In this document: in pieces, positions 10,596 through 23,781 of the stretch
Layout: every line of letters begins with the position of its first letter
Numbering within the stretch: position 1 is the stretch's first letter
DNA from: Magnetococcales bacterium
GTDB taxonomy: Bacteria > Pseudomonadota > Magnetococcia > Magnetococcales > JADFWU01
Assembly (NCBI GenBank): GCA_015234045.1
Contig: JADFWU010000005.1
Coordinates: 64,107 to 109,922 of the forward strand
Direction: 5' to 3'
Length of the DNA stretch: 45,816 nt
Program-made: the position numbers and the translations under genes
The notes under the pieces: model-generated
The model's input: only the letters and a program-made list of their open reading frames with translations
The model's database searches: none
What the model was told of the DNA's origin: nothing

Positions 10596-10741
10596 TTAGG
10601 GCGTGTTGATATTCGCCAGATTTCGGTTCCTGGCAAGGCAAATCCAACGAAAAAGCGGAGCGAACTTGTAGTACGTGAGCATTTTGAGGCGGATTTAACG
10701 CCGCCAGGGGGCGAAAGATGGTGAATGTCAACAGGGCCTAG
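10596..10741. mobile_element. MITE-like non-coding element between yejE and the chemoreceptor gene
   Basis: This segment of about 146 bp is bounded by imperfect 19-bp inverted ends that match at 15 of 19 positions: TTAGGGCGTGTTGATATTC on the left, and the complement of GAATGTCAACAGGGCCTAG on the right. The interior also folds back (TGGCAAGGCAAATCC against GGATTTAACGCCGCCA). It has no coding capacity and its GC content differs from the flanks. It resembles a short repeat of this sort that I recall, without certainty, from intergenic DNA of other proteobacteria. It starts five bases after the yejE stop, and its right end supplies the TAG stop of the chemoreceptor gene. Confidence 0.65.
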
Positions 10742-13074
10742 GTTACGATACCCTTTTCTATAAAGTAGTCTCGATATTTCATGTCTGATTCGAGAATATG
10801 TTGATTGAGCCAAAGGCGTGAAAAACTCAGAGCATCAATGGCAACTGCAAAATATCCAGAATCAAACTGACTCTTTATTGAATCCAATGTTTTCATAAGG
10901 CTATCATGTTCTTCTTTATGTTCTTCATAAAGTGGGAAACGGTGCCGTTTCATCAGTTGTTCTTCCCGTTCAAAATGGTTGTTGCAATGATCCTGAAACG
11001 ACTGAATAACTGTTCCTAGCTCTTTTCTGTTGTAGCCATTTTTCATGGCAGAGTGAAGATCATTTATCATTTTAATTAATTGTTTATGATCATTATCCAG
11101 AGAATTAACATGAACACTTAATGTGTCTCTCCATTCAATGACAGGTCTTGACTCTTTCTTGATATGTCTCAGGCAGGTCTGATCAAGAAGATCAAACAGA
11201 GTGTTTCTCAGTGAATTATAGAGATCTGATTGTTCTATAGCGTGCTCTTTATTATCTGCTTCTATCGCTTTTTGGCAGGTGATAGCCACCTCATGCAGCG
11301 TATCATGCACGGATATCATCTGTTGAAATTGTGGTGTTTCCGCTAATTCAGGGCCAATTCTTTCTGCCCATTTTCTGAGTCCACATGGTTCGTGATTCTC
11401 CATACTGGCACAATCTACAGCAAGTCGTCCTTGAATGGTCTGTTCAAGTTTTCCTTGAAGTTCAAGATGATACTCTTTGAATTTCCTAACATTAAATCTA
11501 AGTGTATTGTAATTAAACTCCATTTGATGAGCAAATGTCGTATCGTTAATCCGACGCAATACGCTTTCAAGTCGTTGAAAATGGCGTGCGGTTCCTTGTG
11601 CTTGGTCAACAACTTGGCTAGCTTGATGCATCTTTTCTCTAATAAGGCGCGCACTATCATCTGTTTTTTCAATTGAAAAGAGTAACTTTTCTACAAATGC
11701 CTTGGTCTCTTCAGCAAGAGAAACATCCTCTTGAGCAGCCATTACAGACTCTGCGGTTGCGCGTGCAACTTCGGTGGTGCCTTCGGCAGCTTCAAGCATT
11801 GATCGCGCAACATCCTCTGCGGCGGTACGAACCTCTTGATTATTGCGTGTTACTTCAGCGGAAGCCCGGACCACATTGGTCATGGCATCGGATACCTCTT
11901 TGACAGTCAAAGACTGCTGACTCATTTCAAGGGTAATTTCTTGATTTGTCTCATTGATCTTATCAATACTGGTAGCAATCAAGGTAGCAACTTCAGTGAC
12001 ACGGGTTGAATTGGACTGAATTTCACCAATCTTATTGGATATAGTCTCAACCGCTGCGGCTGTTTGTTGAGATAAATCATTGATTTCAGAAGCAACAACG
12101 GCAAAACCAAGGCCATATTCTCCAGCACCGGCGGCTTCGATGGATGCGTTTAGTGATAGAAGGTGGGTCTGTTCTGAAATATCATCAATTAAAATCAATA
12201 ATTTACCAATATCTATTGTAGATTGTGTCAGGGCATCCATCACAGAGTAAGTGCCTTTGGCATGTCTGTTTGCCCGGTCTGATTCTTGACTGGCTGCTTC
12301 GCACAGTGTTTGGACATCAGACAATGAGGTGTTCATGGATTCGATAGAGTCAGCAACATTGTTTACGGAGGTATTGACCTCTTCCAAATGGGCGTTGACA
12401 CCCCCCATGTTTGCGGTGATCTCTTCAGCGGCAGAGGCAACAGCGGTAATATTGGCGCTGGCCTGTTCGGAAGCAGAGGCAATGGTGCTAATTTTTTCTG
12501 TAACAAAAATTGCCGATGCGTGAAGAATTTCCATATCTTCCGTTGCCTGTCCGATATCGTTTTTTACCTGTGAAATCGTTTCGCCCAACCCATTGATTGC
12601 ACCATCAACTGTTTGAACAATATCGTGAGAACGGTGAGAATCCGACAGAACCATATCCTTGATCGCCATCAATTGTGTTGCACATGCGGTCATACTGGCA
12701 CCATGAAGGCCCGAAACCTGCATGTTATGCTCCAATTGAGTGGCAAGCTGGTTGATAGCCTTAGAGAGCGGATCATTCTCTGATTGATCTAATCTGGTGG
12801 TATACTCGCCCATGGTCAGACGGTCCAGCACTTCAACACTCCTTTTCAGATGTGTGTGTTTGAGTGCAATCAGAGAAATAAGTGTGTTTACTGTCAGAAC
12901 CAATGCAACAATCCAGACAATGAACGTCAACCAACCAGTCACGTCAGAGGAAGCGCTTGAATCAAGGACGGTGAGATAAAAACCCGTTGCAATCAGTACG
13001 AGTGCAGATAAAGCGGACAGGAAAAAACTGAGCCAACCACCGGCAGAAAAACCTTGGTTACTGTTTACGTTCAT
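10738..13074 (-). CDS. Methyl-accepting chemotaxis protein with CZB zinc-binding and C-terminal hemerythrin domains
   Basis: This 778-residue membrane-anchored receptor has two transmembrane helices at about 14-36 and 46-70 with almost no periplasmic loop, so sensing should be cytoplasmic. A HAMP-like and coiled-coil region leads to the MCP signalling hairpin. Its tip, near residues 300-330, reads [26 protein letters not shown], with Gly where most receptors have Arg in IEAARAGE. A CZB zinc-binding domain follows at about 518-600 ([36 protein letters not shown]). The C-terminal bacteriohemerythrin is at about 641-775 ([51 protein letters not shown]), with the diiron His/Glu/Asp ligand pattern intact. 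Hemerythrin suggests an oxygen or redox signal; CZB domains sense zinc or oxidants. The last codon is followed directly by the end of the MITE-like element. Confidence 0.93.
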
Positions 13075-13486: not shown

Positions 13487-15292
13487 ATGAGTGAGTCGAT
13501 GACCAAGGTGGCGTTGATCACCGACACACCGATGATCAATTCGATCATTAAATATGCCATCAATCCCGATGAGTATGAGGTGGTAATTTTTGGCTCATCA
13601 GATGAAAATCTATTTGAAGGCATTGTAAAATCAGATCCTGATGTCATCTTTTTACGCACAATTTTAAAAGACTCGAATGGGTTGGAACTGTGCGATCAGA
13701 TCAAAGCGGAACCTGCGCTAAAAAGCACGCGCGTGGTGTTTCTTTCTTCTGATACCAAGGTCAGAAAGCAAGCTATTGAGCATAAGGCTGACCGCTTTCT
13801 AACCATGCCATTTTCAGCTCATGATGTTGAAAGTATTCTGGAATCGCTGTTTGTTTCTCGCGTTACCATTCTCTATGTGGATGATAGTGATCTGTTCCAC
13901 AGCGTGGTTCCTGTCTATCTGCGTGATGCAGGCTACAACGTTGTTGAAGCATGGGATGGACGAGAAGCTCTGGAAGTATTGGACCAAAATGAAGTAGACC
14001 TTATCCTCTCCGATGTTGAAATGCCGGTGATGGATGGCTTTACCTTCTGTAAGACGGTAAATCGCTCATCAGAAAAAGATATTCCCATCGTTTTGCTCAC
14101 CTCTCTGGCCTCTGAAGATGCCATTAAAAAGGGGTTTGATGCCGGTGCGGATGATTACATCACCAAACCCCTTTTCCTTCCCGAAGTGCTGTCACGAATT
14201 CATCGCTTGCTTGACATGAGCCAAACGCAGGGGCGTAGTGAACGTATCCTGGTGGTGGAAGATTCCGACACAATCCGCTCTATGTCAGTCAATGCGCTGA
14301 AAGCGCAGGGCTTTCAGGTGGATGAAGCCAATAACGGAACAGTGGCTCTGGTACGCTTGCTTGAGCGGCCTTACGATATCTTGGTGACTGATTATGAAAT
14401 GCCTCACCTGGATGGTCTGCAACTCTGTAAACGCATTCGCAAACAACAGGATTCGGTCAATCAATACCTTCCAGTGATTTTTGCGACAACTCGGAATTCC
14501 AAAGCAGATCTGGTACGCATGAGTTCAATTGGCATTGAGGCGTGTATCACCAAGCCGTTCAGCCCTGAACGAATGATTGCAGAAGTGGAACGTGTGTTGG
14601 CAAAAACACGCCAGGAAAAAGAACGCGAATCAATGCGGCGCTATAATCTCAGTGATGAGATTATTGAACAGGTTTTAGATCCAGATGCCGATCATACTGG
14701 TATTGCTGAAGAACAGTTTCGAACCGTACTGTTTTGTGATCTATCAGGGTTTGGCAACCAGACAGCCGGTCTCGAGCCATCAAAAGTGATCAAGATCCTG
14801 AATACCTTCTTTGACTCTACAGTGGGCATTCTGGGGCAGTTTGATGCAACCATTGATAAGATTATCGGCGATTCCATCTTTGCGTCATTCAGTCAGCAGG
14901 ATGACGGTGCTCACCGTGCGGCTACAGCTGCTCAGGATATTGTGGGTTCCTTGAAAGCGCTTGGCGATGAGGTAGGCTTTGACTATCAGGTGCGTATTGG
15001 TCTTCACTCCGGTTTTGCCATTCTCGGACACATGGGTACACAGCTACATCGCAGAGAGTTTGGCTTGATTGGTGAGATGGTGAATATTGCTCAGGCCATG
15101 GAAGCACATGCCAAAGTGAATGGTATTCTTGTCAGTGAGGCCACATTCACGCTCATTCAGGATCTGGCTAGAGGTGAGGATGTAGGGCCTGTTGTCTGGA
15201 AGCCAGGCCATAAGGCGATACGTGCGTTACATCTAAATGATGTCACACCTTATCAAATGCCTGAAAAAGTTGATAAAAAAGTTGCTGGATAG
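13487..15292 (+). CDS. Triple response-receiver protein with C-terminal class III nucleotide cyclase-like domain
   Basis: This 601-residue cytoplasmic protein has three receiver domains and a cyclase domain. REC1 (about 6-122) is degenerate: R57 sits where the phospho-accepting Asp should be. REC2 (about 125-243) has D176 in LILSDVEMPVMDG, and REC3 (about 255-372) has D302 in ILVTDYEMPHLDG. The class III adenylate/guanylate cyclase homology domain is at about 410-580. Both metal-binding aspartates (D418 in FCDLSGF, D462 in KIIGDSIF) and the transition-state Asn (N533 in EMVNIAQAME) are present. The transition-state Arg that normally follows four residues later is Ala (A537), so full cyclase activity is doubtful. 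GGAG eight bases upstream fixes the start. It diverges from the chemoreceptor and converges on the hybrid-kinase operon, so it is probably the output of one of those kinases. Confidence 0.9.
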   Translation: MSESMTKVALITDTPMINSIIKYAINPDEYEVVIFGSSDENLFEGIVKSDPDVIFLRTILKDSNGLELCDQIKAEPALKSTRVVFLSSDTKVRKQAIEHKADRFLTMPFSAHDVESILESLFVSRVTILYVDDSDLFHSVVPVYLRDAGYNVVEAWDGREALEVLDQNEVDLILSDVEMPVMDGFTFCKTVNRSSEKDIPIVLLTSLASEDAIKKGFDAGADDYITKPLFLPEVLSRIHRLLDMSQTQGRSERILVVEDSDTIRSMSVNALKAQGFQVDEANNGTVALVRLLERPYDILVTDYEMPHLDGLQLCKRIRKQQDSVNQYLPVIFATTRNSKADLVRMSSIGIEACITKPFSPERMIAEVERVLAKTRQEKERESMRRYNLSDEIIEQVLDPDADHTGIAEEQFRTVLFCDLSGFGNQTAGLEPSKVIKILNTFFDSTVGILGQFDATIDKIIGDSIFASFSQQDDGAHRAATAAQDIVGSLKALGDEVGFDYQVRIGLHSGFAILGHMGTQLHRREFGLIGEMVNIAQAMEAHAKVNGILVSEATFTLIQDLARGEDVGPVVWKPGHKAIRALHLNDVTPYQMPEKVDKKVAG

Positions 15293-15432: not shown

Positions 15433-17514
15433 CTAATCCTTATTCTGCGTCAATGCAGATAACTCTTTGATAATAAGGTTGCTTTCTGCTTCTAAAGATG
15501 TGATCAAATCCTGCACACCATCCATAATATCATTGCGTGTCAGTGCATCCAACTTGGTGGCTATCTGCGAGAATCGGAAGGCACCAACCTGCTTGCTGGC
15601 ACTCTTCAACGGATGAGCGATTTGATGAATTTTTTGAGGCGCTTGGCTATCATAAGCAGTGCGCATCTCAGTAAATCGGTCAGGCAGCATTTCGATAAAG
15701 AGTTGGACAACCTCACCAACCACATCAGCGCCTAATTCAGATTTTAACTGTTGAAATGTTGACTCATCTATTGATGGCTCATTTTTCTTTGGAATATCAG
15801 AATCATGAAAACTGCTTTCTGATTCACTATATGAGATAGTGGAATTAGGATCGGAATCGGATTTTTTTTCAACTGGTAACCAACGGAACAGTACATCCCT
15901 CAGTTCTGTACTGTTAACGGGCTTGGAGAGATAATCATCCATTCCGGCTTCAAGACAGCGTGTTCTGTCTCCCTGAAGAGCAAAAGCGGTTACAGCCACC
16001 ACAGGCGTACGTATTAAGCCATGTTCGTTCTCAAACTGTCTCCATTTACGGCTGGCAGTAAAGCCATCCATAACGGGCATTTGGCAATCCATTAATACCA
16101 GATCAAAATGTTGGGTATGCAGTTTCTCAAGTGCTTTCTGGCCATTACCGGCCATCTCAAGTGAACAGCCGATCTGATCCAAATAGCCACGCATTACTTC
16201 ACGATTAACGGGGTCGTCTTCCACAAGTAGAATACGCACCGAAGTTGTGAAAGTTAATAGCTCAAAATCCACTGTATTTTCAAGATGGTTAGAAGTTTCT
16301 TTCTCAGCGTTTTCTTCAATAGATGAATCTGCGACACACTCCATGGGAATTGTGACACAAAACAGGCTCCCGTCGCCGGGATGGCTCTCTACTTCAATAT
16401 CACCACTCATCGCTTCGACAAGCTGTTGGGTGATGGCCAATCCAAGACCTGTACCACCAAATTTGCGTGTGGTGGTGCTGTCTGCCTGGGTAAAAGGCTC
16501 AAACATTGTGCTTACGCGTTCTGGATCAATACCTATTCCAGTATCTTGGACCTGAAAACGTAACCAGGTTGTGGTATCCATTGTTTCCACAGGTCTGGCA
16601 ATCAGGGTGATATCGCCCTGCTCTGTAAATTTTATTGCATTTTGTAATAAATTCAACAAAATCTGTCGTAATCTATTAGAATCTCCTTTAATAATTGCAG
16701 GCATTGCTGGGTCGATCTGTTTATAAAATTCAATGTGCTTTCTGTGGGCAATCTCCAAAAACAAATTACCCAGATCATCCAGAAGTGTCAAAACATTGAA
16801 AGGTGCTGTTTCCAGTTCAAGCTTCCCAGCTTCAATCTTTGAAAAATCAAGAATATTATTGATTATTCCTAATAAACCACTTCCAGCTTGATTGATCAGT
16901 TTGGCATAGTGTTGCCCCTGATCTGGAAGCTCTAAGCCCAACAGTAGTTCAGACATACCTAGAATGCCATTTAACGGCGTTCTAATCTCATGGCTCATAG
17001 TGGCTAAAAAAGCGCTTTTGGCTTGGTTGGCAGATTCAGCCTCTTCCATGGCTTGACTTAAGGCTCTTCGGTTACGCTCCAGTTCGTTGACAGTTTTTTT
17101 CAGGGTAGCGGCTTGTTTAGTCAGCGCATGTTTTTGTTGAAAAAGATCGAGAAAAACGCGCACCTTTGCATGTAATATTTCAGGTTCAACCGGTTTAAAC
17201 AGGTAATCAACGGCCCCGGATGAATAGCCCTGGAAAACGTTATGATCATCTTTACTGATGGCGGTAACAAAAATAATGGGAATTTCTCGAGTTCGGCGCA
17301 TGCCTTTTAACAGACGGGCGGTTTCGAAGCCATCCATCTCTGGCATTTGGACATCCAATAAGATCAGAGCTAACTCATTTTCCAGTGCCAAAGCCAGCGC
17401 TTTATTTCCCGATTTTGCGGTGATAATTCGCCGGTCCGGTCCTTCAAGAAGCCCTTGCATGGCCAGGAGATTTTTCTTTCGATCATCAACGATGAGAATG
17501 GTTGCCGGTTCCAT
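15433..17514 (-). CDS. Soluble hybrid histidine kinase, REC-HisKA-HATPase-REC-HPt
   Basis: This 693-residue protein has no membrane segment. An N-terminal receiver (D54 in [12 protein letters not shown]) is followed by a coiled coil, then the kinase core. The core has phospho-accepting H175 in [15 protein letters not shown], the N box [12 protein letters not shown], and the G boxes DTGIGI and [10 protein letters not shown] second receiver has D476 in [13 protein letters not shown]. The C-terminal HPt domain has H634 in [11 protein letters not shown]. The full His-Asp-His relay is therefore on one chain, and the terminal HPt should pass phosphate to a separate receiver, plausibly one in the triple-receiver cyclase protein encoded next door. 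The N-terminal receiver suggests it is itself controlled by another kinase, such as the membrane hybrid kinase of the same operon. It lies 3 bp downstream of cheB. Confidence 0.94.
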
Positions 17515-17517
17515 GGC

Positions 17518-18144
17518 TTATATCTCTTCCTTATGCGTTTTAGCATGCTCTACAAGCCATGATCCTATCTCTTGGAGATTTAATATATGATCAGGTGTTA
17601 TCAATGCCATAGCGGCCAAAGGCATGGCTGTTGCCACTGCTTGGGCAGGATTTTGCACCACAGTGGTTCCACCTGCATGGTTGATCTCTGCCAGACCTTT
17701 TGCGCCATCTTTATTAGCACCTGTAAGAATAATGCCAATGCAATTTTGGCCCATGGCATCCACAGCACTTTCGAACAGTACATCCACGGCAGGACGCGAG
17801 AAATTAACAGGTGGATCCAACGATAAGGAAAGGGTTAAATCCTCTTCCAATAGCAGATGATAATTGGCTGGTGCCAGATAGCCTGTGCCAGGTCGAATTC
17901 GTTCTTTTTCATCCGATTGTTTGATTTTGATTTGGCATTGTTCATTAAGAAGTTGTGCCAAATAATCATCCGCATCAGGATGTTGGTGTTGAACGATGAG
18001 AACAGGCCATGGAAAATCGGCTGGAAGCGCTGGTAAAATGGCACACAAAGCCTTCAATCCACCTGTAGACACACCGATGAGAACCACTTTGGCACATGGT
18101 GATTCTGATGCCTCTTCTGGCAGATGTGTCAGCGATTGGTTCAT
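17518..18144 (-). CDS. cheB: CheB-type protein-glutamate methylesterase, catalytic domain only
   Basis: This 208-residue enzyme has just the CheB methylesterase domain. The catalytic triad is S26 (GVSTGG), H53 (VQHQHP) and D146 (TGANKDGAKG). It removes methyl esters from, or deamidates, receptor glutamates/glutamines. The N-terminal receiver that normally inhibits and controls CheB is missing; only about 17 residues precede the first strand. Activity should therefore not depend on direct phosphorylation. Its start overlaps the cheR stop by four bases (ATGA), coupling the two opposing enzymes. Confidence 0.93.
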   Translation of the reverse strand: MNQSLTHLPEEASESPCAKVVLIGVSTGGLKALCAILPALPADFPWPVLIVQHQHPDADDYLAQLLNEQCQIKIKQSDEKERIRPGTGYLAPANYHLLLEEDLTLSLSLDPPVNFSRPAVDVLFESAVDAMGQNCIGIILTGANKDGAKGLAEINHAGGTTVVQNPAQAVATAMPLAAMALITPDHILNLQEIGSWLVEHAKTHKEEI

Positions 18145-19007
18145 TGATTGACCTGATACTGTTTCACTTTATAAATCCGACTATTAGATTCAATTTCCTT
18201 GAATTTGTCTTCACTGTCAAGAAATTCAAGCGTTTCTTTATGTCCCAGACAGATAAATCCAGCTGGAGCGAGGCTTTCTTGAAACAGTTTTACCACACGG
18301 GATTGTAATGTTTTATTAAAATATATTAATACATTACGACAAAAAATTAAATCCATTTCTCCAAAAGCCCAATCCGTCGCCAAATTATGATCAGTGAACA
18401 GGATTTGAGTTTTTAATGAATCGGCGATATATGCATAATCACCCTGCATTGTAACATAATCTAATAATGAATTTGTGCCGCCGGAATGCTGATAATTTTC
18501 ACTAAAATTTCGTATTTTACTCTTATGAAAACAAGATTTTTTAGCACTGTTCAGAGATTTTTGATTAAAGTCAGTCGCATAGATCTGAGTACGATTCAGC
18601 AGGTCAGCTTCATGGAGTAAAATCGCCATGGAGTACACCTCTTCTCCCGTACAACAGCCCGCATGCCACACTTTGAGTAACGGTCGCTTGTTCAATATCG
18701 GTATCACCGACTCACGCAAAATCCGATACACATTTGGATCTCGAAACATCTCCGTGACAGAGACAGAAAGACTTTCCAGTAATCTGTCAAAAAATGCGGT
18801 ATTATACAACAGGTTATGCTGCATTTCCGAATAGCTCTGGATCTTCTCCTGACTCATGCGATGTCTCAAACGTCGTTTCAATGACGCACGAGCATAGTCT
18901 CTAAAATCATAACCATATTTTCGGAAAATAGCCTCCAGAAGCAGGTCTATTTCTATGGTGGTTGCTTCCCTATCCATATTCAATGCACTTTCTATTGATT
19001 GAGCCAA
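18141..19007 (-). CDS. cheR: CheR-type protein-glutamate O-methyltransferase
   Basis: This 288-residue SAM-dependent methyltransferase methylates receptor glutamates. It has the N-terminal helical CheR domain (about 15-75) and the SAM-binding catalytic domain, with WHAGCCTGEEVYSMAIL (family SxGEEpYS motif), IYATDFNQKSLNSAKK, and LIFCRNVLIYFNKTLQ. It lacks the beta-subdomain extensions and TPR repeats of specialised CheR fusions. The start lies inside the upstream hybrid kinase gene (16-base overlap) and the stop overlaps cheB. Its substrate must be a product of this operon or a receptor elsewhere; the nearest MCP is encoded 6 kb away in this window. Confidence 0.94.
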   Translation of the reverse strand: MAQSIESALNMDREATTIEIDLLLEAIFRKYGYDFRDYARASLKRRLRHRMSQEKIQSYSEMQHNLLYNTAFFDRLLESLSVSVTEMFRDPNVYRILRESVIPILNKRPLLKVWHAGCCTGEEVYSMAILLHEADLLNRTQIYATDFNQKSLNSAKKSCFHKSKIRNFSENYQHSGGTNSLLDYVTMQGDYAYIADSLKTQILFTDHNLATDWAFGEMDLIFCRNVLIYFNKTLQSRVVKLFQESLAPAGFICLGHKETLEFLDSEDKFKEIESNSRIYKVKQYQVNQ

Positions 19008-22000
19008 ACACGCATCAAAGAAAGCAATTTTTGATTTTCGACCGGTTTGGCAAGATAATCGGAAGCACCAGCATCAATACATTTACGCCGATCATCTTTC
19101 ATAGCCTTGGCGGTTAAAGCAATGATTGGCAATTTTTGGTGTTTTTTCTGTGTACGGATCGTTCGAATGGCTTCATAGCCATCCATCTCTGGCATCATGA
19201 TATCCATTAGCACCAGTTCAATATCCGGGTTCTCTTTTAGTGATTGAAGCCCTTCTTGTCCATTTCGTCCAACAATGAGCGTAGCGTCATGGGCTTCCAG
19301 AATGCCAGCCATTGAGAAGACGTTACGCATGTCATCGTCCACCAGAAGGATTTTTTTGCCTTTTAAGAATTTGGTTCGATCTCTGTTTTCATTGTCTGAG
19401 TGTACGTTTTGTTCTGTTGAGTGAGCACTGTTTATTTCAACGTCTGGTAAGATCTCACTATCCACACTGGTTGGCATTTCACTGAGATCAGGCTGATCCT
19501 CTTCCAGGTAGGATATGGGCTCTGTCAGCGGTCTTTCAGGTAGAATCAAGGTAAAGATACTGCCTTGTCCTTCTGTGCTGCGCAGATGGATCTCACCTTT
19601 GAGCAGTTCGCTGAATTTTTTGGCGATGGAGAGTCCCAAACCTGTTCCGCCATATCGACGGCTGGTGGTGCCATCTGCTTGTTGAAACGGGTGAAAGATC
19701 TGTTCCTGTTTGTCACTACTGATCCCGATACCGGTATCTGTGACCACAAATGCCACACTGGTATGTCGATCCAACTTGGATTTATAGGCGTAGATTTCTG
19801 TGGTGGGTCTGCCAATACTCAGGGTGATTCCGCCACGGCCAGTAAATTTAAACGCATTGGCCAGAAAATTCTTTAAAATCTGTCGGACACGCTTGGAATC
19901 CGTAGTGATTCGGCGGGGTATTTGATTTTGCAAGATGGTTTCAAATTGCAATGATTTGGTGTTGGCCATGGGTGTGAATCGGCGGCGCATCTCCGAAGCG
20001 AGACTGGCTAAATCGAGCAATTCCCATTGGGGTTCCATATGGCCAGCTTCCACCTTGGCCATATCCAACACCTCATCGATCAGCTCCATCAACTCACGAC
20101 CGGCTTCTTGGATGGTGCTGGCAAATTCAGTCTGTTTCTCAGTCAGATTACCATCCATATTGTCGGATAACAGATTGGAAAGAATGAGAATACTATTGAG
20201 CGGTGTACGTAGCTCATGAGACATGTTAGCGAGAAATTCAGATTTATACCGGCTGGCAATCTCCAGCTCTTTGGCTTTCTCCTCAAGCAGTTTTCGAGAC
20301 CGATTAAGCGCATTATTTTTTTCTTCGATATCGCTTTTTTGCTGTTCCAGCTGTTCGGTACGGGAACCCAATTCATCATTGGCCATCCGCAACTCTTCCT
20401 GTTGACTTTGTAGCTCTTCTGTCTGTGTTTGCAGTTCTTCGGTTTGGCTTTGTAGTGCATCGGCTTGTTGTTGGGTTTTTACCAACAAAATCTTAGTTCT
20501 TTCAAGAGATTCTGCGGCTACCATCGCCGTTACGGTGGCTTCTCCGACCCGCTCTAGCAGGTTTAAGCTGCGGCCGGAAAAGGGAAGCAGACTACCCAAT
20601 TCAATGACACCACGAACCCGTCCACCATAGAGCAGAGGTATAACCAGAATCTGACGCGGTGGTGTGGAACCAAGACCACTCTCAATGGTGATGTAGTCAT
20701 CCGGCACCTGGGTCAATAAAATGGGTTTGGCTTCAAGGGCAGCTTGTCCGACAAGTCCTTCACCCTCCTTAATGGTGTTATTAAGGTGCTTTCGATTGGT
20801 GTGGGCATAGGAGGACAACATGCTAAAGGGTGTTTCATCAGACTGTCGCCAATACAACAGTCCGATGGGCAGACTGAGAAAATCAGCCAGAAAGTGCAGA
20901 ATCGCGGTTGCCCGTTCTTCTATGGTTTGCTCATCGGAGATGCAGGCGTTCAAATTAGCCTGTCCGGTTTTAATCCATGTTTCCTGAGCGTTTTCTTCGG
21001 TCAGAGCCCGTAGAGAGCGGGTCATCTCCAGCAAGGCTTTACCGAGGGCATCTTGATCTGATTTTGGTTGGATATCGGCAGAAAAATCCCCTTTGGCGAT
21101 CCGTTTTGCCTGCTGAACCACTTCACGGAAATTACCGGTCATTTCGACCATCGCCCGACCGAGAACATCCTTTTTGCCTTTGATATTCATACTGCGTTTA
21201 TACTGACCACCGGCAACGGCTTGAGCGATTTCTCCGGCCTCTTCCAGGGTTTCAATCATCTGGTTGACAGCGTGTGCCAATCGATCCCGCTCTGAACGAA
21301 CCGGCATGCGTTCCCGGTAATCACCGGCCGCCACGCTCTGCATCACTTCAGCGACTTGACGCAGAGAATAGGTCATTTCGTTCAAGCCCTGTCCCAGCTG
21401 ATCTTGTCTGGAGAGCAGTTTTACATTTTGGGTATAGTCACCGGAGGCAATGAGATTTGCTTGATGGATTGTTGCGTGGAAACTCTCTTTCAATTTACGG
21501 ATAGAGATGATGATTTCACCTACTTCATCCGAATGTTTATAGCTGATATTTTTTAAAGGGACACGACCAGTAGAGAGTTTTTTAAGTTGAGCGGCGGCTT
21601 GTTTAAGGGGCTTCAAAAAACCACCAACCACCCAACGACTGACCAGCATAACCAGAACAAATATGCCAATTACGGTGAGAATAAACAGAGCATTAAAACG
21701 CCGAAGCGGTGACAACATCACAGCTTCATCCTGCTGTTTAATCAGAAACCAGCGCTGTTGGATACTGCCCGGCAATATGGGAACTTTTTTGATGAAAAAT
21801 AGACTGCCACTTTGCCTTATTGCTCCCTTAACGGGATTTAGAGTAATAGCGAACAGATTGGGATGATCCGCTTTTAAATTGTATGAGTGGCCCAGTTGCC
21901 AGCCCCATTCCTTGTTTTTATCAGGGTGGTGCAAATAGTGACCATTGCCATTTGTCAGTATAAACTGAGCATCACTTCCCAAACTTTTTGCCCGTGCCAT

Positions 22001-22696
22001 TTTGCGATGAATAATATCCAGCAACGTATTGCCATACATATTCAAAATCAGCACACCGCGTAGCATTTCATCCTGATCATAGAGCGGCGTGGCAAAACGA
22101 ATGACCGGAACCAGCGGGCGTTCCAGCTTGCCCCATTCTTGATTAAGATCCAAAGGAGAGATGTGGACCTGTCCCCGTTTCAAACGCACCGATTCGGAAT
22201 AGTAAGGACGGTGTAGTTTATTTTGCATCTTCTGTTGTGGAATAGTGATTGCACGGTGGTTTTTTGGATCAAAATCAATGCGGATCTGCTCCATCCCTTT
22301 GGGATCAAGAAGGCGCACTTTGGCGTAGATCTCCTTGGATTCAAGAAAGGATGAGAAAGCGCGGGTAAGATGATGCAACCAACGTTGCGCCTGTGCTGGT
22401 TCATCAACAGTGGTCCAGTGTAAATATTTTGTCAGCGCGTAGAATTCAGAAAGAAAATGGAGATCTTTAGGCCCCTCTTCCAGTATATCGACAATATTAT
22501 TGGATATATCCTGAAGCTCTTGAATATTCACCATTTCTGCGTCTGCAATCAGAGATCGAGAAGTGGTTGTATAGCCATACCATCCACTGATCACCAAAGG
22601 CACGGCAATGGCAAAAGAGAACAGCAATCCCAGCTTATTTTTTAAACTGTGATTGAAACGCGGCAGTCGATGCAGAAAGGTCCAGGGTGAGGGCAT
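18992..22696 (-). CDS. Membrane hybrid sensor kinase, sensor-HAMPx5-GAF-coiled coil-HisKA-HATPase-REC
   Basis: This 1234-residue protein has transmembrane helices at about 18-40 and 320-346 enclosing an extracytoplasmic sensor domain (Cache-like by position). After it come five HAMP-type units in tandem: the classical one after TM2, then units centred on IASGDY, VAAGDY, VAGGQY and IAKGDF, each ending in a D-x-LG/A-x-A-x-x-xM motif. A GAF domain lies at about 590-730. Next is a heptad coiled coil rich in TEELQ/QEEL repeats, then the kinase core (H827 in FLANMSHELRTPLNS, DTGIGI, GGTGLGLSI). A C-terminal receiver has D1165 in VLMDIMMPEMDG. It has the glutamate-rich coil and methylation-enzyme neighbours of a chemoreceptor but kinase output of its own. 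Three bases separate it from the upstream exported-protein gene. Confidence 0.93.
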   Translation of the reverse strand: MPSPWTFLHRLPRFNHSLKNKLGLLFSFAIAVPLVISGWYGYTTTSRSLIADAEMVNIQELQDISNNIVDILEEGPKDLHFLSEFYALTKYLHWTTVDEPAQAQRWLHHLTRAFSSFLESKEIYAKVRLLDPKGMEQIRIDFDPKNHRAITIPQQKMQNKLHRPYYSESVRLKRGQVHISPLDLNQEWGKLERPLVPVIRFATPLYDQDEMLRGVLILNMYGNTLLDIIHRKMARAKSLGSDAQFILTNGNGHYLHHPDKNKEWGWQLGHSYNLKADHPNLFAITLNPVKGAIRQSGSLFFIKKVPILPGSIQQRWFLIKQQDEAVMLSPLRRFNALFILTVIGIFVLVMLVSRWVVGGFLKPLKQAAAQLKKLSTGRVPLKNISYKHSDEVGEIIISIRKLKESFHATIHQANLIASGDYTQNVKLLSRQDQLGQGLNEMTYSLRQVAEVMQSVAAGDYRERMPVRSERDRLAHAVNQMIETLEEAGEIAQAVAGGQYKRSMNIKGKKDVLGRAMVEMTGNFREVVQQAKRIAKGDFSADIQPKSDQDALGKALLEMTRSLRALTEENAQETWIKTGQANLNACISDEQTIEERATAILHFLADFLSLPIGLLYWRQSDETPFSMLSSYAHTNRKHLNNTIKEGEGLVGQAALEAKPILLTQVPDDYITIESGLGSTPPRQILVIPLLYGGRVRGVIELGSLLPFSGRSLNLLERVGEATVTAMVAAESLERTKILLVKTQQQADALQSQTEELQTQTEELQSQQEELRMANDELGSRTEQLEQQKSDIEEKNNALNRSRKLLEEKAKELEIASRYKSEFLANMSHELRTPLNSILILSNLLSDNMDGNLTEKQTEFASTIQEAGRELMELIDEVLDMAKVEAGHMEPQWELLDLASLASEMRRRFTPMANTKSLQFETILQNQIPRRITTDSKRVRQILKNFLANAFKFTGRGGITLSIGRPTTEIYAYKSKLDRHTSVAFVVTDTGIGISSDKQEQIFHPFQQADGTTSRRYGGTGLGLSIAKKFSELLKGEIHLRSTEGQGSIFTLILPERPLTEPISYLEEDQPDLSEMPTSVDSEILPDVEINSAHSTEQNVHSDNENRDRTKFLKGKKILLVDDDMRNVFSMAGILEAHDATLIVGRNGQEGLQSLKENPDIELVLMDIMMPEMDGYEAIRTIRTQKKHQKLPIIALTAKAMKDDRRKCIDAGASDYLAKPVENQKLLSLMRVWLNQ

Positions 22697-22700
22697 GTGA

Positions 22701-23651
22701 TTAGTTCACTTGAAGTAATTGAATCTGTTTAATTTTACGCAATCCCCATGCCAATAGTTGCAGTATGTCGCCCAACTGTTTATCACGATAATTAGTGGTG
22801 AGGAATGGCTGGTCATTGGCGAGACCGAGATATGTTTTTATGGGTTGCAGTTCAGCTACTATCAGATTACTCAATCCAAGCAGTTCACCCAGTTTCGGTG
22901 TATCGGAGCTGAGATTGAGTCCAGAGATCCTCTCAACACCAACGGGACGTTGGATCTGGCGCACTTCATTGAGCAGTTTTGAAAATGCGGCCAACAATGT
23001 TTCAGATTGAGCCTGTTGTACTCTATTGGGCGGTGATGTCTGATCATTCAGTCCCAAGGCGCGTATGATTTCATCAATATCGTGATGAATCCGAATACAG
23101 TTTCCAAATGCAATACCGATAATATGGCTGTTGTCCACCATGCCATCCAATGCACGGTTGATATGATTGAGCTGATCATAGACTGTGGACTGAGAATATA
23201 CGGTGTCTTTGCTCTTTTGGTTGGAAAAGTTGGGCATTGATTTTTCCGAAGGATGTCCCAACCTTTTGTTGAGAAAAACCAATTCCCAACGGATACGTAT
23301 CAACGCCTCAACCAGCAGATCAACGGGTTGACGGTCACGGGTTAGAAAACTCTGATTGTCCGATACTGGAAAACCATTTTGTTGACGGATTGATTGTATT
23401 TTTTGATTGATTTCATTCAAACGACTGTACAAAATCCGGTTAGGCATTGCCTGAACCGATGGCACAGCCTGAGTCAGTTCCGGCAAGTTACGATATGTGC
23501 GGAACAGCTTGACCTCTCTATCCAACTGAAGCGTTTGATAGGTGAGTTCTTTGTTCCAATCCATGGACTGATTGGCTGCATTAAGCTCGGAATAAAAACT
23601 GATTCCAGCCAGAATGGTGATGAGCACTATCCTGTTGAAGCGTAAGAACAT
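22701..23651 (-). CDS. Exported hypothetical protein, first gene of the hybrid-kinase/CheRB operon
   Basis: The family is not recognised. From the ATG at 23651 it encodes 316 residues with a clear signal peptide (MFLRFNRIVLITILAG..., cleavage near ELNA-ANQ). The frame stays open a further 34 codons upstream, but that extension overlaps the yejF start region and lacks the signal-peptide form. The mature protein is mostly predicted helical, with repeated hydrophobic/charged patterns (LYSRLNEINQKIQSIRQQNG, LLVEALIRIRWELVFLNKRLG) and only one visible Cys. Placement immediately before the membrane sensor kinase suggests a periplasmic partner or ligand-binding accessory of that sensor. This is an inference from position only. 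Confidence 0.8.
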   Translation of the reverse strand: MFLRFNRIVLITILAGISFYSELNAANQSMDWNKELTYQTLQLDREVKLFRTYRNLPELTQAVPSVQAMPNRILYSRLNEINQKIQSIRQQNGFPVSDNQSFLTRDRQPVDLLVEALIRIRWELVFLNKRLGHPSEKSMPNFSNQKSKDTVYSQSTVYDQLNHINRALDGMVDNSHIIGIAFGNCIRIHHDIDEIIRALGLNDQTSPPNRVQQAQSETLLAAFSKLLNEVRQIQRPVGVERISGLNLSSDTPKLGELLGLSNLIVAELQPIKTYLGLANDQPFLTTNYRDKQLGDILQLLAWGLRKIKQIQLLQVN

Positions 23652-23781
23652 GGTATCATTCCGTAAGGCAAGCAGTAAAATTAAGAGCGCCCAATCCGCA
23701 AATCGTGTAAATAGGCATTGGATTGTACAAGATTGAGTGCGTAGCGTCATCACTTTGAATCACATGATTAGGGATAACCTC

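Follow-up and report, generated by a model that had tools for sequence, protein, structure and literature searches.

The minus-strand gene cluster at 15433-23753 of the window (the whole stretch of 45,816 nucleotides that was analysed) probably encodes a methylation-based adaptation module built on an ordinary two-component kinase: judging from the sequences, CheR and CheB would act on glutamates of the coil of this kinase. Receptor methylation as a means of sensory adaptation is known from chemoreceptors. We are also inclined to believe that a CheR clade of its own, accompanied by CheB or not, makes up a widespread module which works without CheA and MCPs and tunes two-component histidine kinases by reversible glutamyl methylation, in at least eight phyla and in free combination with various sensors and outputs. 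The proposal is based on the gene order, the intact catalytic residues, the separate CheR clade, whose members tend to occur in the same genomes as coil kinases and beside them, and the existence of such operons in genomes without detectable MCP or CheW.

The mechanism that we propose is the following. CheR would methylate glutamates of the cytoplasmic signalling helix that joins GAF to HisKA, the receiver-less CheB would remove the methyl groups from the glutamates of the same helix, and further target sites may lie elsewhere on the same kinase. Methylation would shift the on/off balance of the kinase, whose output would thus reset under a lasting signal; this output would run through the kinase's own REC to the downstream REC-kinase-REC-Hpt protein. 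That the kinase is methylated, that this happens on the coil and that activity changes as a result are inferences from the observations reported below, while the idea that all this amounts to physiological adaptation is drawn by analogy from the action of CheR and CheB in chemotaxis.

All five genes lie on the minus strand. The first gene of the operon is likely the one at 22701..23753, whose product has a hydrophobic stretch at its N-terminus, matches no Pfam or NCBIfam family and is possibly a periplasmic partner of the sensor domain of the kinase. It ends 4 nt ahead of the start of a membrane hybrid histidine kinase of 1234 aa (18992..22696, an ORF with Pfam domains), which is followed by cheR (18141..18977, kinase-linked clade) and by a cheB reduced to its methylesterase domain (17518..18144). 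A gene for a REC-HisKA-HATPase-REC-Hpt hybrid kinase (15433..17514, from its Pfam domains) begins 3 nt downstream of cheB, and its product is likely to be the next relay step after the kinase. The domain search between 15433 and 23753 returned no MCP, CheA or CheW domain, so that the claim of the earlier note that the kinase, cheR and a receiver-less cheB are clustered without cheA, cheW or MCP is confirmed. The gene overlaps of 16 and 4 bases that it gave are only half correct: cheR and cheB do overlap by 4 nt (ATGA), while the 16-nt overlap of the kinase gene with cheR supposes the TTG start at 19007 taken from the ORF list. The ATG at 18977 is the likelier start, because the gap is then about 14 nt and the conserved block of the family begins downstream of this ATG. 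Convergent with the operon, at 13487-15292, lies a gene for a protein with three receiver domains and a guanylate/adenylate cyclase catalytic domain, a possible target of the Hpt domain.

By its domains (CheR_N and the CheR SAM domain), its fold and its catalytic residues, all of which are present, the window CheR is a predicted protein-glutamate methyltransferase. The equivalents of R53, R98, E129, D154 and Y235 are intact, the arginine corresponding to R53 of E. coli CheR being retained in 16/16, and the model of the protein (pLDDT 91) superposes on Salmonella CheR 1AF7 with a TM of 0.80. The Ser-His-Asp triad of the CheB_methylest domain (S164/H190/D286 equivalents) is likewise intact. The domain search detected no N-terminal receiver in CheB, which thus does not classify as a chemotaxis CheB response regulator.

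The kinase is composed of a first transmembrane segment (residues about 22-40), a periplasmic HK_sensor_dom_bact domain (97-309), a second transmembrane segment (about 334-352), HAMP-like repeats up to residue 566, GAF (590-724), the coil (about 725-815, between GAF and HisKA), HisKA (818-885), HATPase (933-1055) and one REC (1116-1227). It is a hybrid histidine kinase, since HisKA, HATPase_c and REC are all detected, and MCPsignal (PF00015) is absent from it in the domain search. The five HAMP units attributed to it earlier are plausible: four tandem 39-residue HAMP-like repeats occupy residues 411-566, and the fifth would be a degenerate membrane-proximal unit which we read by eye, while Pfam calls a single HAMP (442-486). 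We also considered a pentapeptide tether and rejected it, no NWETF-like motif being found at the C-terminus of the kinase.

The candidate methylation sites lie in the segment TEELQTQTEELQSQQEEL of the coil (20390..20443 on the minus strand, residues 752-769), where E/Q pairs stand at 753/754, 760/761 and 767/768, that is, every seven residues. If the leucine repeats are set as heptad position d, these pairs fall at b-c and the second glutamate of each (E754, E761, E768) falls at c. In MCPs, methylation typically occurs on the second residue of an [EQ][EQ] pair, at heptad c (PMC6829392). The sites of E. coli Tar, as we read them from its sequence, have the same spacing and register. The AlphaFold2 model of the kinase has a single unbroken helix over residues 708-845, confident through the coil and weaker towards HisKA. 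The earlier observation of Glu pairs at heptad spacing holds, and their number exceeds chance: in kinases adjacent to a CheR a coil has 4.1 E/Q pairs seven residues apart, while residue-shuffled coils have 1.7 and background kinases 0.17. Compared with coil kinases without CheR, the figures are 4.13 and 1.68.

The resemblance to MCP methylation sites, also put forward earlier, stands for the register and the spacing but fails for the strict consensus [ASTG][ASTG]xx[EQ][EQ]xx[ASTG][ASTG], which has no match in the kinase coil and four in Tar; the three pairs pass a relaxed form of it. The receptor TlpT of R. sphaeroides likewise deviates from the strict consensus (PMC6829392). Moreover, some relatives that lack CheR keep the QQEEL..N core (Glu at that position in 92% of 12 coil kinases without CheR, versus 85% with it), and we rejected this core as a marker of CheR. 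It is therefore plausible that the pairs at 753/754, 760/761 and 767/768 are the methylated residues, but as they pass the relaxed consensus alone and as some kinases that lack CheR have the core motif too, they stay candidates. Since, in addition, our sample contains very few phylogenetically independent contrasts of CheR adjacency against Glu pairs, the support is stronger for the kinase as substrate than for the exact glutamates.

There is some room for the idea that CheR and CheB modify the kinase outside its coil (in the HAMP-like repeats, GAF or HisKA), or else the partner hybrid kinase, the coil being conserved as a signalling helix for other reasons; E/Q-rich helices are indeed common in linkers, and the core is retained without CheR. 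We nevertheless hold this idea to be unlikely: both the number of pairs and their heptad spacing are greater with CheR, the register of the coil agrees with that of MCP sites, and the HAMP-like units vary among CheR-linked relatives (from Pfam matches).

In a quick tree of 115 CheR domains, the 77 kinase-linked ones form one clade (SH-aLRT 100, long stem of 0.95), which includes CheB-CheR fusions adjoining coil kinases; the chemosensory CheRs of the host and the long CheB-CheR-PAS forms fall outside it. The window CheR alone, used as query against bacterial genomes, gave 23 loci, hosted by Pseudomonadota (Ferrimonas, Photobacterium), Bacteroidota, Desulfuromonadaceae, a deltaproteobacterial MAG, SAR324, Spirochaetota, Bacillota and Elusimicrobiota. 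At nearly all of them a HisKA hybrid kinase adjoins CheR, and the arrangement kinase-CheR-(CheB) is repeated in CheR-selected loci of about eight phyla; in the Bacillota copies and at locus L039, no cheB adjoins CheR. Every coil of the GAF-coil kinases within the fetched stretches has Glu-pair heptads, L039 being the weakest. The constant part is GAF-coil-HisKA-HATPase-REC together with CheR, while the sensor (HK_sensor_dom_bact in the window kinase, CHASE3 in Flavobacterium) and the output (REC-GGDEF in Photobacterium, REC-HK-REC-Hpt in the window) are exchanged.

The earlier note had suggested comparing the occurrence of this type of coil with that of cheR and cheB, and the two do go together. 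Calling a clade CheR at 250 bits or more (the next score is 197), we found, among 150 genomes of the phylum, 42 with both clade CheR and coil kinase, 9 with the coil alone, 1 with CheR alone and 98 with neither; the Fisher p value of 4e-27 overstates the independence of these genomes, because about a quarter of them belong to one order. For 53 of the 65 clade CheRs, a coil kinase is encoded on the same strand at a distance of no more than 6 kb. Most of the genomes with the coil alone carry kinases of 1600-2100 aa without CheR nearby; several of these (L045, L054-L059) have HAMP matches, and CheR has possibly been lost there or was never gained.

This comparison is partly circular, because the coil model was built from CheR-linked kinases. 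Circularity is avoided in two ways: by scoring E/Q pairs in the host, and by the genomes free of MCP and CheW treated below. We scored all 88 HisKA kinases of the host genome for E/Q pairs without consulting CheR, and only four have a strong E/Q-pair coil (C32 41756, C117 40818, C73 84148, which is the kinase of the window, and C58 17821). These four contigs also hold the four clade CheRs of the host, three of them directly adjacent to the coil kinase and the fourth about 10 kb off. This fourth CheR (on C58; L133, L268) adjoins a REC protein, and no CheB is found there.

One could object that CheR and CheB act on chemoreceptors and that the adjacency of the kinase is fortuitous. The gene at 10738-13074, 2.4 kb past the end of the REC-HisKA-HATPase-REC-Hpt gene, does encode an MCP, whose C-terminal domain is a bacteriohemerythrin (oxygen or iron sensing), the host has several CheW-domain proteins, and at 23 of 141 related loci the fetched stretch includes an MCP ORF. 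But the host also has further CheR/CheB sets outside the kinase-linked clade, and the clade CheR is nearly restricted to genomes having a coil kinase. Above all, when we searched 18 genomes from the CheR scan for MCPsignal and CheW (cut-off E 1e-5), four had no match to either. In three of these (G159-G161: F. sinopsychrotolerans, F. limicola and one deltaproteobacterial MAG), which are without any such match genome-wide, the coil kinase adjoins CheR and CheB; the fourth, also a MAG (G157), was left out of the count because no coil kinase was found in it. Gaps in the sequence could explain the result for the MAG, hardly for both Flavobacterium genomes. Of all the evidence, these three genomes argue most strongly that the substrate need not be an MCP; they disfavour an MCP as the obligatory substrate of the clade, and we regard the chemoreceptor explanation as quite improbable. 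Among 120 sampled genomes of Flavobacteriaceae, the operon was found in the query genome only, hence it is sporadic in this family.

The dedicated clade, the fact that its members go together with the coil kinase and lie beside it, and the operons in genomes without detectable MCP or CheW argue for the kinase as the substrate of CheR and CheB. They support that part of the earlier suggestion which makes the kinase, and not a chemoreceptor, the methylated protein, while adaptation proper would follow by analogy. Finally, that CheR and CheB are by now signalling or scaffold proteins inactive on any glutamate, as the lack of a receiver in CheB and of cheB itself in some phyla might suggest, is very improbable given that the catalytic residues are invariant throughout the kinase-linked clade.

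The module shares with the adaptation system of E. coli Tar and Tsr the folds and catalytic residues of the enzymes, and its candidate sites are likewise E/Q pairs spaced by seven residues, at heptad b-c, on a long helical bundle. It differs in its proposed substrate, a HisKA hybrid kinase, and in that CheA, CheW and MCP are missing, as are the receiver of CheB, the strict site consensus (only the relaxed one is matched) and the pentapeptide tether. In ACF systems, too, the adaptation enzymes of the Che type go with REC-kinase outputs of several domains, but these systems retain CheA and MCPs, neither of which is found in the kinase-CheR-CheB module. The long CheB-CheR-coil/PAS proteins of the same genomes (about 1000-1400 aa) resemble it by their CheB and CheR domains, their coils and their location outside chemotaxis operons, while their CheR domains fall outside the kinase-linked clade.

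The neighbourhood of CheR/CheB and kinase genes has already been remarked on in genome surveys. In the titles and abstracts of the open literature we found no description of a CheR-dependent methylation of a histidine kinase; the enzymes are known, and the kinase would be a new, putative class of substrate. If ordinary two-component kinases do rely on these enzymes, precise adaptation may be much more widespread among bacterial signalling systems than is assumed, and a testable substrate is gained for many orphan cheR/cheB genes. The Flavobacterium species without detectable chemoreceptor offer a clean setting for testing kinase methylation. Kinases of the window type also stand beside a second CheR lineage (L108-L110, L117), in this case with an MCP gene some 1 kb off in divergent orientation.
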